The translations under genes were made by a program, and so were the position numbers. The notes beneath the pieces were generated by a model, which searched no databases, was not told where the DNA came from, and worked only from the letters and a program-made list of their open reading frames with translations. From Cyclobacteriaceae bacterium (lineage in GTDB: Bacteria; Bacteroidota; Bacteroidia; Cytophagales; Cyclobacteriaceae), in contig JAEUTZ010000004.1 in the NCBI GenBank assembly GCA_016787725.1, positions 310,001 through 374,000 on the forward strand: 64,000 bases of DNA, written 5' to 3'. Of this stretch, positions 32,107 through 55,638 are shown piece after piece (within the stretch, counting starts at the first letter, position 1; every line of letters begins with the position of its first letter).

Positions 32107-33498
32107 TTAAGCAGGTGGGTGTACCGCTAAATAGGGTTGAATAATCAGATAAATAATAGCCCCTGCGAAATAACCCAGCATCGCGAGTAAGGAGATTCGT
32201 TTGAGATACCAGATGAAATCGATTTTTTCAATTCCCATGGCTGCGACCCCAGCTGCTGAACCGATGATTAAAATACTTCCACCTGTTCCAGCACAATAGG
32301 CCAAATATTCCCAAAGCATGTGGTCCATGTAATAAATGTCCATGCTGTACATACCCATGCTGGCAGCTACTAGAGGTACGTTATCGACAATGGCGGAAAG
32401 TAATCCTATTAGTGTAACAATTATCCGCTGATCTCCTATGGATTCATCCAACCAGGATGCCAGATGATGAAGAATTTGCATGGACTCCAGAGCCCCAACA
32501 GCCAATAAAATTCCGAGAAAGAATAATACACTCGGTACATCAATTCGCGAGAGAGCACCAGCCACAGTATAGTTTTTCTTTACAGCTTCGTCCAATTCAG
32601 GGTTAATGAGTTCAGAGACAACCCAAAGTACCCCTAAGCCCAACAAAATTCCTGTATAAGGGGGCATGTGTGTTATGGTTTTAAAGATTGGCACGAATAT
32701 GAGGGCACCAACACCCAGAAATAGCATGAGGTTCCCTGACCGTACAGTTGTGTCATGACCATGCGCTTTTTGCTCTTGAGCTTCACCCAAGGTTCCCTTC
32801 AATGTAAAATTCAAATAGATTAAAGGTATTAACATACAGGCCACACTGGGCAAAAACAGAGTGATCATGATATTACCCGTTGATATCTGACCTCCGATCC
32901 ATAACATTGTGGTAGTTACATCCCCAATGGGCGTCCACGCACCTCCTGCATTGGCCGCTATAACAATCATTCCGGCAAAGAACAAACGCATTTCTTTATC
33001 CGAAATCAATTTTCGGATCAAGGATAACATAACAATTGTGGTAGTAAGATTATCCAGCACGGCCGATAGAAAGAACGTTACCCAACAAATTATCCAAAGC
33101 AACACTTTTGGATTTTTCGTTTTAATTCTATCGGTAATAAACTTAAAACCATGATGTGCGTCTACCAATTCAACTATGGTCATAGCACCCATCAGGAAGA
33201 ATAAGATCTGAGCAATGCCACTCAAATGTTCCGATAGCTCAAAGGTCACAAACTCGCGGTAAAGCTCACCGGAGGTCAATGCCGAAAACTTATCGCCCAA
33301 TTCGACTTTTAAAACTTGTAAAAAGGAATTATAAGATTCGCTTTCAGTAACTGCAGGAGAAGGATCCGATAATACAAAAAGGGTCCAGCAAATTACTCCG
33401 GCTAGCAAGGCGGAGGCAGTTTTATTTATCTTAATTGGATGTTCAAGGGCAATGGCTAAATAGCCAATAACAAATACGATGATAACGAGCGCCTCCAT
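32107..33498 (-). CDS. nhaD: NhaD-type sodium:proton antiporter, paralogue 1
   Basis: NhaD exports Na+ (or Li+) in exchange for protons at the inner membrane. The 463-residue protein belongs to the ArsB/NhaD ion transporter superfamily, with about 12 helices. Typical parts are 'GYLAIALEHPIKINKTASAL', 'ILFFLMGAMTIVELVDAHHGF', 'VLDNLTTTIVMLSLIRKL', 'VIAANAGGAWTPIGDVTTTMLWIGGQIS', and 'YLAYCAGTGGSILIIGSAAGVAAMG'. Compared with the neighbouring copy it has about 30 extra residues near 45-85 ('PSPAVTESESYNSFLQVLKV' and onward). It lies 78 nt downstream of paralogue 2. Confidence 0.92.
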   Translation of the reverse strand: MEALVIIVFVIGYLAIALEHPIKINKTASALLAGVICWTLFVLSDPSPAVTESESYNSFLQVLKVELGDKFSALTSGELYREFVTFELSEHLSGIAQILFFLMGAMTIVELVDAHHGFKFITDRIKTKNPKVLLWIICWVTFFLSAVLDNLTTTIVMLSLIRKLISDKEMRLFFAGMIVIAANAGGAWTPIGDVTTTMLWIGGQISTGNIMITLFLPSVACMLIPLIYLNFTLKGTLGEAQEQKAHGHDTTVRSGNLMLFLGVGALIFVPIFKTITHMPPYTGILLGLGVLWVVSELINPELDEAVKKNYTVAGALSRIDVPSVLFFLGILLAVGALESMQILHHLASWLDESIGDQRIIVTLIGLLSAIVDNVPLVAASMGMYSMDIYYMDHMLWEYLAYCAGTGGSILIIGSAAGVAAMGIEKIDFIWYLKRISLLAMLGYFAGAIIYLIIQPYLAVHPPA

Positions 33499-33576: not shown

Positions 33577-34887
33577 TTAATGGACGGCTAAAAACGGATA
33601 AATAATCAGGTAAACGATGGCTCCGGCAAAGTACCCCAGGGCAGCCAGCCAGGCAATCTTTTTCAAGTACCAGATAAAATCTACTTTCTCCATACCCATC
33701 ACCGCAACGCCTGCCGCTGAACCGATAATAAGAATACTACCCCCTGTTCCGGCACAATATGCTAGGTATTCCCAAATCATGTGATCCGTTGGATAAGTTT
33801 CCATGCTGTACATTCCCATACTGGCAGCAACCAGGGGCACATTATCTACAATTGCAGATAACACTCCAATGAGCGTAATAATGATCCGGTTATCCTTTAG
33901 CGTGGTGTCCAGCCAGGCTGCAAAGTGATGGAGAATTTCCATTGATTCGAGGGCAGCCACCGCCAAAAGTATTCCCAGAAAAAATAAGACACTGGGCACA
34001 TCAATGCGTGTCAGGGCACCGGCTGCTGTATAAGGCCTCTTCTCGGCCTCATCCATATCCGGATTGATAAGCTCCGATGCAACCCATAGCACTCCTAGTG
34101 CAAATAACATACCTAAATAAGGCGGAAGTTGGGTGACGGTTTTAAATACAGGAACCGATATTAATCCTCCTACCCCTAAAGTCAACATAGTCAGAGAACC
34201 TTTAACTGGGGCATTGCCATTGCTATGACCATGGTCGACAGCGTTGTTCGACTCCTGATTATCATAACTTCCTAGATCACCCTTTAAGGTGAATTGCAGG
34301 TAGATCAGAGGGACGGCTATACAAACCACACTCGGCAAGAACAAGGTGAGCATGATGTTACCGGATGAGATTTGTCCACCTATCCAAAGCATGGTGGTTG
34401 TAACATCTCCAATGGGGGACCACGCCCCGCCCGCATTGGCGGCAATCACGATCATCCCTACAAAGAATAGGCGCATTTCCCGATTTGGAACTAGCTTTCT
34501 GATAAGTGATACCATCACAATGGAGGTGGTCAGATTATCCAGGATGGCCGATAGTATGAATGTTACACTACAAATAATCCAAAGTAATTTCTTGGGGTTT
34601 TTTGTATTAATGCGATCGGTAATGATCTTAAATCCCTGGTAGGCATCCACTAACTCAACAATAGTCATGGCACCCATCAAAAAAAACAAGATTCCCGAAA
34701 TAGATCCGAGGTGCTCGCCCAGTTGTTCGGTGATATGCGCTATGGAAGTCTGTGATAAAAGCGCATAAAGTGTCCAGCAAATTACACCGGTAAGAAGAGC
34801 CGATGCAGTTTTGTTTATTTTAATTGGATGTTCAAGGGCAATGGCAAGATAGCCAACAACGAAGATGATAATTACAATTGCTTCCAT
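33577..34887 (-). CDS. nhaD: NhaD-type sodium:proton antiporter, paralogue 2
   Basis: This 436-residue protein starts at ATG 34887 ('MEAIVIIIFVVGYLAIALEHP'). It is very similar to the downstream copy: 'ILDNLTTSIVMVSLIRKL', 'VIAANAGGAWSPIGDVTTTMLWIGGQIS', and 'YLAYCAGTGGSILIIGSAAGVAVMG'. The loop around residues 205-225 carries a His/Asn-rich insert ('NQESNNAVDHGHSNGNAP'), where paralogue 1 has 'QEQKAHGHDTTVRS'; both histidine-rich stretches could bind metal or sense pH. The pair faces the tandem CaCA pair, so four cation antiporters stand together. Confidence 0.92.
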   Translation of the reverse strand: MEAIVIIIFVVGYLAIALEHPIKINKTASALLTGVICWTLYALLSQTSIAHITEQLGEHLGSISGILFFLMGAMTIVELVDAYQGFKIITDRINTKNPKKLLWIICSVTFILSAILDNLTTSIVMVSLIRKLVPNREMRLFFVGMIVIAANAGGAWSPIGDVTTTMLWIGGQISSGNIMLTLFLPSVVCIAVPLIYLQFTLKGDLGSYDNQESNNAVDHGHSNGNAPVKGSLTMLTLGVGGLISVPVFKTVTQLPPYLGMLFALGVLWVASELINPDMDEAEKRPYTAAGALTRIDVPSVLFFLGILLAVAALESMEILHHFAAWLDTTLKDNRIIITLIGVLSAIVDNVPLVAASMGMYSMETYPTDHMIWEYLAYCAGTGGSILIIGSAAGVAVMGMEKVDFIWYLKKIAWLAALGYFAGAIVYLIIYPFLAVH

Positions 34888-35571
34888 GGACAATCTGGTG
34901 GGTTTTCAAAGTAAAACATACCTATTTGCGAAGTGAGCAAGATAATTATTACCGGTCAGCCCAGTTATTAATTGTTGGTTAGAAAACGGATAGTCGACTA
35001 GCACTCGATCCCGTAACATCTTTAAATTTTACTTAACATTAAGAAATCCGGATTACAGGACAGAATAGTTTTTAGTAGCCGGTAAGCACAGCACGCAATA
35101 CTGAACAGTTAATCTGAAAAATATAATTGGCTGCCGGTTCTATCAGCTGCACGATCAAGGCTAGCACTTCAGGTTATAAAATGAAGCAAGAGCAAACCAA
35201 ACCGTTGAAACCGGAAAGGAAATATTGTTGTGGCTAATCCGCTCCTTCCAACACGCTGTAACTGGTGTATATACTTTTAGGGCGGGCCTTGAGGGATTGG
35301 AAATCCATTTGACGTTGTATTTCATTAGATCCACATTGTGATTCTGTTTGAATACATACGCATAAACTGGAGGTGTTCCCGAGCAAGTCCGGGAGCAAAA
35401 AAAGCATCACTCAACCTTACTAACTTAGCTATGGATGCAGTAGGCCAGATGAATGGAATAGGATAACCCAATAAATAGATCCTTGGGAATTTTTATCAAA
35501 AAACAAGAAAAAGAGGCTGTAACCTATTTTTTTGTTACAGCCTCCTATAAATCAATTTTTAATCATTTTTA
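34888..35571. other. 684-bp intergenic region, no supported gene
   Basis: This is the longest non-coding stretch of the window. The right end holds the TonB-receptor terminator (35513-35544). I found no frame with a start, no tRNA and no consensus promoter. On the minus strand a 54-codon open stretch without a start runs from about 35490 to 35325 ('IYLLGYPIPFIWPTASIAKL' region); it could be a gene remnant or chance. The left part should hold the control region of the NhaD gene starting at 34887. Confidence 0.6.
35513..35544 (-). terminator. Intrinsic terminator after TonB-dependent receptor
   Basis: GAGGCTGTAAC paired with GTTACAGCCTC, an 11-bp perfect stem with a 10-nt loop, followed on the minus strand by TTTTTCTTGTTTTTT. 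It lies 28 nt beyond the receptor stop. Confidence 0.88.
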
Positions 35572-39912: not shown

Positions 39913-41826
39913 TTACTTCACCTCTTCGTATTCTACATCGGTTGCATTACCACCCGTACTTCCGGTCTGTCCTCCGGCCTCGCCATTGGATTGAGCCCCG
40001 GCATTGGCACCTGGCTGTGATCCACCGGCATACATTTCCTGCGATGCCGCCTGCCAGGCAGCATTAAGTGCATTGATTGCATTTTCAATGGCGGTCAGAT
40101 CCTGACTCTTATGTGCTTCTTTCAATTTATCCAGCGCCTGGTTGATGGCTGTCTTATTACCTTCTGAAAGTTTTTCACCAAACTCTTTCAATTGTTTTTC
40201 GGTCTGGAAAATTAACGAGTCAGCTTGATTGATTTTATCAATGCGCTCTTTCTCTTTGCGATCCTGTTCTGCATTCGCTTCGGCTTCCTGCTTCATCTTC
40301 TTGATCTCGGCATCCGTTAACCCACTGGAAGCTTCGATCCGGATCTTCTGTTCTTTGCCGGTGCCTTTGTCTTTGGCGGACACATGCAGGATACCATTGG
40401 CATCGATATCGAAAGTAACTTCAATCTGGGGTACTCCGCGCGGTGCCGGTGGAATTCCGTCCAAGTGGAACCGGCCAATGGTGCGGTTGTCGCGGGCCAT
40501 CGGACGCTCCCCTTGTAACACGTGAATTTCGACAGACGGTTGGTTATCCGAAGCGGTAGAGAATACCTCCGATTTTTTAGATGGAATCGTGGTGTTTGAC
40601 TCTATCAGTTTGGTAAACACACCACCCATGGTTTCAATTCCCAACGAAAGTGGCGTGACATCCAACAACAACACATCTTTCACCTCACCCGTAAGTACAC
40701 CGCCTTGAATGGCAGCGCCTACCGCTACTACTTCGTCAGGATTCACACCTTTCGAAGGTTTCTTTCCAAAGAATTTCTCAACTTCTTCCTGAATTCGGGG
40801 GATACGGGTGGAGCCACCCACCAGGATAACCTCATCAATCTGATTCACGCTATAACCGGAATCTGCCAATGCTTTGCGGCAAGGCTCCAGCGTTCTGCGA
40901 ATCAGGTCATCGCACAATTGTTCAAACTTGGCGCGTGAAAGCTTCCTTACCAAGTGTTCAGGCACACCATCCACGGAAGTGATATACGGTAGATTGATTT
41001 CGGTTTCGTTTGAGCTGGAAAGTTCGATTTTTGCTTTTTCAGCGGCTTCTTTCAAACGCTGTAAGGCCATGGGGTCTTTGCGCAAGTCGATATTCTTATC
41101 GGCTTTGAATTCATCGGCCAGCCAGTTCATAATGCGCATGTCAAAGTCATCACCGCCCAGGTGTACATCCCCATTGGTGGATTTCACTTCAAATACGCCA
41201 TCTCCTAATTCCAGGATCGAGATATCGAATGTACCACCGCCCAGGTCGTACACAGCGATTTTCATGTCTTTGTTCTTCTTATCGAGACCATAAGCTAATG
41301 CAGCGGCAGTAGGCTCGTTGATAATGCGCTTTACATCCAAGCCGGCAATTTGACCAGCCTCTTTGGTAGCCTGCCGCTCGGCATCATTAAAGTAGGCCGG
41401 AACGGTAATAACCGCTTCGGTGATGGTAGTGCCCAGGTAATCTTCGGCTGTAGTCTTCATTTTTTGAAGGATTATGGCAGAGATTTCCTGTGGGGTGTAG
41501 AGCCGGTCGCCAATGCGCACCCGCACGGTATCATTGTTACCACTTTCAACCTGGTAGCTAACGATCTTTTTTTCTTCACCCACATCGGCAAATTTTTTGC
41601 CCATGAAGCGTTTAATGGAAGAAACGGTATTTTTTGGATTGGTAATCGACTGACGTTTAGCAGGGTCACCTACTTTACGCTCGCCTTTACCGTTATCCAG
41701 GAAGCCCACAATAGAAGGCGTTGTTCTGCGGCCTTCGCTGTTGGCTATCACCACGGGTTCGTTGCCTTCCATTACAGCTACGCACGAGTTGGTGGTTCCT
41801 AAGTCGATTCCAATAATTTTTCCCAT
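39913..41826 (-). CDS. dnaK: Molecular chaperone DnaK (Hsp70)
   Basis: DnaK is an ATP-driven chaperone working with DnaJ and GrpE, both encoded at 53.9-55.6 kb. The protein has 637 residues from ATG 41826 ('[21 protein letters not shown]'). Hsp70 signatures are '[14 protein letters not shown]', '[16 protein letters not shown]' and '[17 protein letters not shown]'. The substrate-binding domain has '[18 protein letters not shown]'. The C-terminal lid ends in a Gly/Gln/Ser-rich linker and 'DVEYEEVK', the usual acidic EEVK-type tail. It is monocistronic, and no CIRCE element is seen upstream. Instead, a TTGGCA-N6-TTG element and a TGACA-N3-TGGCA repeat precede it, an arrangement shared with grpE. 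Confidence 0.98.
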
Positions 41827-41875
41827 GATATGCTCAGTTTTTTGATTACAGATTAATTCAGCAAAACCCATTGAA

Positions 41876-41890
41876 CAAGGCTTGTGCCAA
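41876..41890 (-). promoter_or_regulatory. Sigma-54-like element upstream of dnaK
   Basis: Minus strand TTGGCA-CAAGCC-TTG: the -24 GG and a TTG at -12 spacing fit the TGGCAC-N5-TTGC form, except that T replaces the final C. The element ends 49 nt before the dnaK ATG. The same TTGGCA-N6-TTG pattern precedes grpE. Confidence 0.5.
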
Positions 41891-41911
41891 GGGGCTTTTT
41901 ATCAGAAAATG

Positions 41912-41924
41912 TGACAGAGTGGCA
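41912..41924. promoter_or_regulatory. TGACA-N3-TGGCA repeat upstream of dnaK
   Basis: TGACA-GAG-TGGCA (minus strand TGCCA-CTC-TGTCA) is an imperfect TGNCA-N3-TGNCA element 21 nt upstream of the TTGGCA-N6-TTG motif. A matching TGACA-N3-TGTCC element lies 12 nt upstream of the corresponding grpE motif. It is probably a regulator-binding site; the regulator is unknown. Confidence 0.5.
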
Positions 41925-53865: not shown

Positions 53866-54984
53866 TTAGCCAAAATACTCTTTCATACGCTCAAAAAAGC
53901 CCTTTTCGCTGGCATCGGGGTGTGGTTGAAAGTTCGGGGATTGCTTCAAACTTTCCAGTTTAGCTTTTTCCTCTGCCGTAAGCTTTTTGGGTGTCCACAC
54001 ATTAATATAGATAAGCTGATCGCCAGCTCCATATCCATTCACATCCTTCAGGCCCTTTCCGCGCAAGCGTAGGATTTTTCCACTCTGCGTTCCCGGGTCG
54101 ATTTTAATGCGCACTTTTCCTCCCACCGAGGGCACTTCTACGGAAGTTCCAAGAGCAGCGTCAATAAAACTGATGTGGAGGTCATAGATGAGATTGTTCC
54201 CATCCCGCTTCAGTTCTTTGTCTTCAACTTCTTCAATCAAAATCAACAGATCACCCGGAATACCACCGCCCGGAGCCTCATTCCCCTTGCCCGACATAGA
54301 GAGTTGCATTCCATCACCTACGCCAGGTGGAATTTTAACCGTAATCATATCTTCCTTTGAAACCAGACCTGAGCTATCAACACCGGAAGGACGTTTGTCA
54401 ATCAGTTGCCCGGCCCCGTTGCACGAAGGACACGTAGAGGTGGAGACCATCTGCCCCAACATGGTATTCACCACCTTGCGTACCTGGCCGCTGCCTCCGC
54501 AGGTTGTACAATTCTTGAAGGTAACGCCTTCGGCCCGCACCAGCCGGTTCACTTTTATTTTCTTTTCAACCCCGTTGGCAATCTCTTCCAATGAAAGCTT
54601 TAGCTTGATGCGCAGATTAGAGCCTTTGCGCTGCCGGGTTCTTCCGCCACCACCTCCAAAAAAACTGTCGAAAGGACTTCCCCCGCCCCCAAAGATGTCT
54701 CCGAATTGGCTGAAGATATCTTCCATGTTCATGTCATGACCCTGGAAACCACCCTGCCCTGGTCGGGAATGACCAAAACGATCGTATTGTGCACGCTTCT
54801 CGGAATTACTCAATACTTCATACGCTTCAGCAGCTTCTTTGAATTTTTCTTCCGCTTCCTTATTGCCTGGATTTTTGTCGGGATGAAATTGAATGGCCAC
54901 CTTCCGGTAAGCCTTTTTAATCTCTTCCGGAGAGGCGCTTTTGCTTATGCCTAAGATTTCGTAATAATCGCGTTTTGTTGACAT
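53866..54984 (-). CDS. dnaJ: Chaperone DnaJ with reduced zinc-binding domain
   Basis: DnaJ delivers substrates to DnaK and stimulates its ATPase. The 372-residue protein has a J domain (1-70, with HPD at 34-36 in '[10 protein letters not shown]'). A Gly/Phe-rich linker follows (about 71-118, containing 'FGDIFGGGG' and poly-Gly). The C-terminal beta-domains start at about 122. The zinc domain has only two CXXCXGXG repeats, 'CTTCGGSG' (159-166) and 'CPSCNGAG' (185-192), instead of four. The first and fourth are replaced by '[11 protein letters not shown]' and '[12 protein letters not shown]'. It is 21 nt downstream of grpE. The dnaK gene is 12 kb away on the same strand. Confidence 0.96.
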
Positions 54985-55005: not shown

Positions 55006-55569
55006 TTAACTTCCGACTACTACTTTGGCAAAGCGGATCACTTTGTCATTGAGTAAGTATCCCTTCTCAACAACATCTATGATTTTTCCTTTTAGCTTTT
55101 CATCGGGTGCGGGTACTTGCGTGATCGCTTCGTGCAAATCAGGATTGAAGTCAGAACCCGAATTGGTATCCATTGCTTTAACACTGTATTGCTCCAGCGT
55201 TTTTTTAAATTTATTCTGAATGAGCAGAAAACCTTCGGCTTCTTTGTCGTCTCTTCCCTTGTATGATTTTTCGGCCCGTTCAAAATCATCAATCACCGGT
55301 AAGAGCGCTTTCAAAAGTTGCTCGTTGGCCGATTGAATCATCTCTAACTTTTCTTTAGACGACCTGCGTCTGAAATTGTCAAACTCAGCATACAGCCGAA
55401 GGTATTTGTCTTTGGCTTCTGCCAATTCGTCCTGTAGTTTTTTAAGGGGATCGGTGCTTTCCTCCTTTGGTTTAGCGATAACAGGTTCTTCAGATTGACC
55501 TTCTGGGGTCTCGGTACCCAAATCATCGTGTTTTTCCAATTCTTGCTCCGGTTGTATCGTGTTTTCCAT
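55006..55569 (-). CDS. grpE: Nucleotide exchange factor GrpE
   Basis: GrpE releases ADP from DnaK. The protein has 187 residues from ATG 55569 ('MENTIQPEQELEKHDDLG'); an in-frame GTG lies three codons upstream. An acidic N-terminal tail (about 1-45) is followed by a long coiled coil ('LKKLQDELAEAKDKYLRLYAEFDNFRRRSSKEK'). The beta-wing domain ends the protein ('SGSDFNPDLHEAITQVPAPDEKLKGKIIDVVEKGYLLNDKVIRFAKVVV'), as in all GrpE. It forms an operon with dnaJ and carries a TTGGCA-N6-TTG element 30-44 nt upstream. Confidence 0.97.
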   Translation of the reverse strand: MENTIQPEQELEKHDDLGTETPEGQSEEPVIAKPKEESTDPLKKLQDELAEAKDKYLRLYAEFDNFRRRSSKEKLEMIQSANEQLLKALLPVIDDFERAEKSYKGRDDKEAEGFLLIQNKFKKTLEQYSVKAMDTNSGSDFNPDLHEAITQVPAPDEKLKGKIIDVVEKGYLLNDKVIRFAKVVVGS

Positions 55570-55598
55570 GGTGTTCACTAAGTGCGCTGCAAAAATGA

Positions 55599-55613
55599 CA
55601 AGAATTTTGCCAA
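55599..55613 (-). promoter_or_regulatory. Sigma-54-like element upstream of grpE-dnaJ
   Basis: Minus strand TTGGCA-AAATTC-TTG, the same arrangement as upstream of dnaK. It ends 29 nt before the grpE ATG. The final base is T instead of the C expected at -12 for RpoN. Confidence 0.5.
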
Positions 55614-55625
55614 TACGCTGAATCT

Positions 55626-55638
55626 TGACAAGATGTCC
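55626..55638. promoter_or_regulatory. TGACA-N3-TGTCC palindromic element upstream of grpE
   Basis: TGACA-AGA-TGTCC has the perfect inverted core GACA-N3-TGTC. It sits 12 nt upstream of the TTGGCA element and 1 nt beyond the obgE stop. It parallels the TGACA-N3-TGGCA element upstream of dnaK. Confidence 0.5.

Follow-up and report, generated by a model that had tools for sequence, protein, structure and literature searches.

The window, i.e., the whole 64,000-nt stretch of DNA analysed here, harbors on its minus strand the gene dnaK (Hsp70; 39913–41826), coding for a protein of 637 residues, which begins with MGKIIGID and matches the Pfam family HSP70 with an E-value of 2.6e-265. Its start codon is the ATG at 41826–41824. 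The minus strand 5' of the gene reads TTGGCACAAGCCTTG at 41890–41876, i.e., TTGGCA-N6-TTG, the core of a sigma-54-type promoter (41875–41890) with TTGGCAC as the -24 and TTGT as the -12 element. If the GG of this element (41888–41887) is taken as positions -25/-24, the base following TTG (41875, 49 nt from the ATG) corresponds to the sigma-54 position -12 and is a T; were the site a -24/-12 promoter, transcription would be predicted to start at about 41863, 37 nt 5' of the ATG. The in-frame ATG at 41871, given as the dnaK start in the ORF list, was rejected, as it would be located upstream of this predicted transcription start. Further upstream, the minus strand at 41924–41912 reads TGCCACTCTGTCA, i.e., the repeat TGCCA-CTC-TGTCA, which spans approximately -61 to -49, is separated from the TGGCA of the promoter by 22 nt, and is proposed as an activator site (below, the operator). 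The same strand of the window encodes, at 32107–33498 and 33577–34893, two adjoining, clearly similar membrane proteins, which by their look we take to be NhaD-type sodium/proton antiporters.

Another chaperone locus on the minus strand of the window comprises grpE (55006–55569, start ATG at 55569; Pfam GrpE, E-value 1.9e-44 for 55006–55572) and dnaJ (53866–54984, 372 residues; Pfam DnaJ, DnaJ_C, and DnaJ_CXXCXGXG). It is preceded by a putative sigma-54-type promoter, TTGGCAAAATTCTTGT, at 55598–55613, with TTGGCAN6TTG at 55613–55599. According to the initial annotation, the same pair of elements as before dnaK recurs here. This holds for the -24/-12 part, but the repeat is imperfect (GGACA-TCT-TGTCA, 55626–55638) and ends 13 nt, not 22 nt, upstream of TGGCA, a phase close to that of the short-gap class of dnaK regions (see below).

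In the window, TTGGCAN6TTG is encountered six times against 1.29 expected, a count reached in 0 of 100 shuffles; four of the copies reside inside ORFs, and the remaining two precede dnaK and grpE. The TGNCA-N3-TGNCA repeat alone is found twice in the window against 1.39 expected, which is not beyond chance; hence, the window sequence by itself could not decide on the dnaK elements, and it is conservation that decides. The canonical TGGCAY-N5-TTGC, tried as a scan pattern and abandoned, stayed at the chance level in the window (12 matches against 10.5 at one mismatch), since C at -12 is the wrong requirement here. In the genome from which the window originates (G000), TTGGCA-N6-TTG alone is not specific either, with 93 matches against 35 for the reversed-pattern control. 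The combination TGTCA-N8-38-TGGCAN6TTG gave nine matches (control: one), two of which belong to dnaK and grpE; a mere glance at the ORFs of the remaining seven revealed no chaperone gene. A lax profile search of the same genome retrieved dnaK (E-value 4.4e-11) and three weak matches, one of which is groES (E-value 1.5), with no chaperone gene seen downstream of the remaining two.

The conservation of the elements was assessed in a set of dnaK loci obtained by a DnaK search (80 loci, whose titles place them in Cytophagales except for a few that are vague or unusual; 81 with the window). L020, L045, and L087, with less than 150 nt 5' of the gene, were dropped, and 78 regions were kept, including those from Pontibacter, Rufibacter, Algoriphagus, Marivirga, Fulvivirga, Marinoscillum, and Flexithrix. 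TGGCAN6TTG is present in 76 of these regions (0.38 in shuffles), TGNCAN3TGNCA in 74 (0.42 in shuffles), and both elements in this order in 73, against a mean of 0.01 over 200 shuffles; L086 and L095, devoid of TGGCAN6TTG, display by eye the variants TGGTA and AGGCA instead. The consensus of these promoters is TTGGCAYAAccaTTGWTaa. The arrangement first noticed before a single dnaK is thereby confirmed, and the check by conservation in relatives, set beforehand, turned out positive for dnaK as well as for the hsp20–dnaK loci of distant families described below. An ordinary sigma-A promoter whose sigma-54 look is a mere coincidence could be advocated from the window alone, where the repeat does not exceed chance; the figure of 73 out of 78 regions against 0.01 in shuffles has already refuted this explanation, and the sigma-A box TAnnTTTG, detected in 6 of the 78 regions against 7.7 in shuffles, is not above chance. 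The initial annotation was equally right in reporting neither a CIRCE element nor a good TAnnTTTG before dnaK: CIRCE was found in none of the 78 regions.

The upstream half of the conserved promoter conforms to the -24 element TGGCAY with its GG, the base after TGGCA being C in 43 and T in 33 of the 76 sites, and the N6 spacer (76 of 78 regions) retains the ten bases between the GG and GC positions of sigma-54 promoters. The GC doublet itself (TTGC) is seen in a single site: the -12 base is A in 42, T in 33, and C in one of the 76 sites, while G at -13 is imposed by the search pattern itself. The T at -12, raised originally as a reason for doubt, is therefore order-wide, not a local defect, and we call the dnaK promoter a putative sigma-54-type variant with A or T instead of C at this position. 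Two other sigma-54-like sites of G000, TTGGCACGCTTGTTGGC and TGGCACATTTCTTGGC (L141, minus strand, approximately 6017 and 3670), located upstream of ABC-transporter-like genes beside an enhancer-binding protein (EBP) with a receiver domain, read TTGG, i.e., possess G at -12, so a C may not be usual in them either.

The gap between the repeat and TGGCA, counted in the 76 regions with TGGCAN6TTG (73 with the repeat, three without), equals 12 nt in 11 rows, 22 nt in 29, 23 nt in 31, and 34 nt in two, with no other value; 12, 22–23, and 34 differ by steps of a helical turn. On a DnaK tree built by a quick method, the short-gap class takes five changes, at least two of which are forced by supported branches, and the long-gap class needs one. 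The TGNCA words outside the core repeat (88 sites) are best described by a period of 10.5 bp, with R of 0.53 compared with 0.46 at 10, 0.37 at 11, and 0.17–0.21 at 9.5 and 11.5 bp, the rows being related, so that p values are not probabilities in this case. The control word ACNGT is represented by 15 sites in the dnaK regions vs. 222 for TGNCA. In 21 of 73 regions, the core repeat is a full dyad, TGACA-N3-TGTCA. An activator obliged to face the polymerase would be expected to have its sites at whole turns from the promoter. The TGNCA repeat is quite probably an activator site.

The groES upstream regions were collected from 29 loci: 16 of the same genus (the own genome included), nine from other families of the order, and four belonging to a divergent GroES-like protein, the latter four lacking a -24/-12-like site. 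The motif [TC]GGCAY-N5-TNG precedes groES in all 16 genus members, and, of the nine loci from the order's other families, all eight that were usable (i.e., without L148) have TGG[CT]A-N6-NTG. Thus, the conservation proposed for groES holds in the genus for the -24/-12-like site but is partial for the operator: TGNCA half sites within 60 nt are positioned at 11–13, 21–23, or 53–54 in 13 of the 16 members, and no TGNCA was found within this distance in the other three. At the position of the TTG of dnaK, the genus sites read TCG in 12 cases, TGG in two, and TAG in two, with no TTG. A CATCTTTGC-like word, resembling the sigma-A -7 box, is common to many groES regions of the genus (e.g., L159), where it is located 5' of the TGGCA site. 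Two promoters may thus be present before groESL, against only one before dnaK. Besides the normal GroES, many relatives encode a second, divergent GroES-like (Cpn10) protein of approximately 125–175 residues (E-values of about 1e-13 to 1e-9), whose gene in the own genome is at G000:C24:186530-186844.

Beyond the order, a sequence-only profile built from 60 dnaK promoters, all with the gap of 22–23 and hence yielding hits that lean to that class, was run over 395 genomes of the phylum and matched in 91 of them at an E-value of 0.05 or lower, many near the limit. Among 30 loci fetched for these matches, 21 matches lie before dnaK, six before an hsp20-like gene, and three (L126, L133, and L138) have neither gene downstream, the genes being judged by sequence. 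For a survey of dnaK sites, 30 genomes were chosen, not randomly, at about one or two per family. [TC]GG[CT]AY-N5-TTG was found in 25 of them, vs. 0.30 in shuffles (largest value, 3): in 17 it precedes dnaK, and in eight it precedes an hsp20 that is located upstream of dnaK and was identified by its motif. The other five have it in neither place. Five of the 30 were earlier profile matches, four of them positive; of the other 25, 21 were positive. The -12 base among the 25 sites is A in 11, T in nine, C in four, and G in one. In L235, L239, L241, L242, L248, and L252 (families f24, f18, and f21), the sigma-54-type site belongs to an hsp20 gene a short distance upstream of dnaK, whereas in Cytophagales it is dnaK itself that carries it. 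The hsp20–dnaK locus of G114 (TGACATTATGTCA, a gap of 23 nt, then TTGGCACGCATATTGC) combines the same operator and spacing as dnaK with the canonical sigma-54 -12 element, and in this way ties the odd Cytophagales element to sigma-54.

These data bear on the question of which sigma factor is involved. TTGGCA-N6-TTG might be read by an ECF factor or another member of the sigma-70 family and only resemble a sigma-54 promoter, as could be argued from A or T at -12 in 75 of 76 sites and from the groES sites of the genus (12 of 16 with TCG, none with TTG). This is very improbable in view of the four hsp20 promoters of distant families with canonical TTGC at equal spacing, and of the two TTGG sites beside the receiver EBP in G000, which also do without C. 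Dependence of the dnaK promoter on RpoN is highly likely. In addition, the promoter class of the same genes in Flavobacterium psychrophilum was called sigma-54 on the basis of its motif and mapped starts, according to the available part of PMC9723704.

The own genome possesses one RpoN, with all three RpoN domains and the RpoN box ARRTVAKYRE. The RpoN of the phylum has D-[IV]-S-T where that of E. coli has HEST; the helix starting at D-[IV] (H-E in E. coli) is presumably the one binding -12, and the arginine kept in the phylum is, as we assume, R383. Co-variation of RpoN residues with the -12 base was considered and rejected: D-[IV]-S-T is common to all 19 RpoN pieces compared, those of the TTGC families included, and hence does not explain the -12 difference between families. 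RpoN was detected in 388 of the 395 phylum genomes. A match to P0001 (the candidate activator, see below) at an E-value of 1e-60 occurs in 395 of 395, although other EBPs reach this score (G000 alone has four such matches), so the figure is not an orthologue count. Because both are near universal here, presence or absence of RpoN or the EBP provides no test. The absence of RpoN failed as a natural experiment for the same reason, and also because G317 (family f24, rated 98% complete), for which no match to the RpoN DNA-binding domain was obtained and whose assembly may be incomplete, keeps a sigma-54-like site before hsp20–dnaK.

Ten PF00158 matches in G000 include five strong EBPs, four of which bear receiver domains. 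The fifth, P0001 (G000:C13; 418 residues), has no receiver; its AAA+ domain with the GSFTGA loop is followed by a conserved stretch, a variable linker, and a Fis-type HTH. Its EBP nature follows from PF00158 (E-value 8.8e-67), PF02954 (E-value 3.9e-11), and the loop. The conserved SEREILYKVLFDMKKDVNDLKK-like stretch between AAA+ and HTH (residues 285–312; gene at L143:6004-7260, minus strand) is about 28 residues long, shows a mean column identity over 21 sequences of 0.63, compared with 0.30 in the linker that follows, and is a helix by its look. The gene of P0001 directly follows miaB; next come a gene with weak similarity to TPR and secG. In 20 miaB–EBP stretches from other genomes of the phylum (again chosen, about one or two per family, not randomly), the row miaB–EBP–...–secG–groES–groEL was recorded in eight (G146, G049, G076, G387, G002, G041, G088, and G162), three of which have secG and groES separated by one or two genes; groES was not seen in the other 12, and in the own genome groESL does not adjoin the miaB-linked EBP. 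G115, which has RpoN, is the only one of ten genomes checked with a single EBP, the miaB-linked one, which makes it the only possible activator of sigma-54 promoters there. The dnaK site of this genome, CGGCACGGTGATTGA (CGGCAC...TTGA), is recognisable but degenerate, with only half an operator by eye. Overall, the activator-dependent regulon of the RpoN type surmised initially is supported by the conservation and by the presence of one RpoN and five strong EBPs, from which we infer RpoN dependence.

The miaB-linked EBP is fairly likely to be the activator acting at the TGNCA repeat, as suggested by its domain make-up and gene neighborhood. Another possibility, which appears rather unlikely, is that RpoN drives dnaK while the repeat serves a different regulator (an RprY-type response regulator as a repressor, or a receiver-bearing EBP), the miaB-linked EBP controlling something else. 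The four other strong EBPs of the own genome, all with receiver domains, and the extra phased TGNCA copies upstream would fit this possibility. OmpR-type regulators recognize mostly direct repeats approximately 11 bp apart; the centers of the repeat described here are spaced by 8 bp, with a full dyad in 21 of 73 regions, unlike OmpR-type sites. A different regulator is also disfavored by G115, with its sole EBP, and by the 8 of 20 stretches where the EBP gene closely precedes groESL. On the other hand, gel shifts with RprY of Porphyromonas gingivalis showed binding to the promoters of groES, clpB, and dnaK, and RprY was interpreted as a repressor (PMC3646045, as far as its available part goes); the TGNCA sites could therefore be used by another protein.

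The explanation preferred overall, with reasonable though not high confidence, is the control of dnaK, grpE–dnaJ, and groESL by RpoN together with a dedicated EBP at the TGNCA repeat. RpoN–RNA polymerase would sit at TTGGCA-N6-TTG as a closed complex; the EBP would bind TGNCA-N3-TGNCA at about -55 (in relatives, shifted by a helical turn in either direction) and on the same side of the double helix, and would use its AAA+ domain to open the complex under protein-folding stress, with heat as the presumed signal. The most likely activator would be the receiver-less P0001 of 418 residues, whose gene row runs towards secG and, in many relatives, groES–groEL; grpE–dnaJ and groESL would share the control of dnaK. 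The stretch between AAA+ and HTH is, at a guess, a candidate place for control by chaperones. What counts against this explanation is that EBP sites are usually located farther upstream than the dnaK repeat.

A bolder proposal for Bacteroidota in the wide sense joins four parts and, taken as a whole, is put forward tentatively, its chances being somewhat below even. Firstly, the general heat-shock response would be run by sigma-54 and one receiver-less EBP of the miaB–secG–groESL neighborhood from a phased TGNCA-N3-TGNCA beside the promoter. Secondly, RpoN and this EBP would be essential in Cytophagales, unlike in most bacteria, because dnaK there lacks another recognisable promoter; a literature search on rpoN essentiality in Bacteroides found nothing by title or abstract start. 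Thirdly, the RpoN of the phylum would read a -12 element without C, and, fourthly, chaperones or misfolded protein would set the EBP activity at the conserved AAA+/HTH stretch.

The usual account of bacterial heat-shock control is given in terms of RpoH or HrcA. If true, a circuit of sigma-54 and a dedicated activator across much of a phylum would represent a third general solution and would explain the retention of RpoN in 388 of the 395 sampled genomes. The rule implied, i.e., activator sites at whole helical turns, is testable by spacing mutants, and the question of who switches on the chaperones in Bacteroidota becomes a test of one gene.

HrcA/CIRCE and RpoH likewise govern dnaK and groESL under heat. 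Unlike systems of the HrcA/CIRCE type, the dnaK regions studied here contain no CIRCE (0 of 78), and no match to HrcA was obtained in G000 or in any of the 98 genomes of its class (one own, one from the genus, seven from the family, six from the order, and 83 from the class). HrcA is present in 228 of the 395 phylum genomes, all positives sharing with the own genome the phylum only and falling outside its class; the conserved switch may be the chaperone control of the class where HrcA was not found. The PspF-like receiver-less activators have in common with P0001 the AAA+ domain (that of PspF is among the solved relatives of P0001), the GSFTGA loop, the Fis-type HTH, and the near absence of an N-terminal domain; P0001 differs in the conserved stretch of about 28 residues and in its place beside miaB and secG and, in some genomes, groESL.

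The control of chaperones in Bacteroidota, initially thought to be open, is not wholly so. In F. psychrophilum, as the available part of PMC9723704 reports, starts were mapped at a sigma-54-type motif (SM4) before groESL, lon, dnaK, grpE–dnaJ, htpG, skp, and clpB; the bacterium is listed there with one sigma-A, one sigma-54, seven ECF factors, and three EBPs, and the activator was left open by the authors. SM4 resembles the promoters described here in phylum, target genes, and -24/-12 type; it differs in that the starts were mapped there, whereas the evidence here is comparative, and in that the available part of the paper contains no phased TGNCA-N3-TGNCA operator or named activator. For Bacteroidota, Cytophagia among them, a matrix-based promoter count predicted a sigma-54-enriched cluster of the chaperone genes for GroEL, GroES, GrpE, DnaJ, DnaK, and IbpA, with no operator, activator, or remark on -12 in the available part of the source (PMC12316311). 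A literature search, with most subscription journals outside its scope, found no paper with the phased operator or an assigned activator by title or abstract start. Thus, the link of sigma-54 to the chaperone genes of Bacteroidota was in part known already; added here are the operator with its phasing, the base usage at -12, and a candidate activator.
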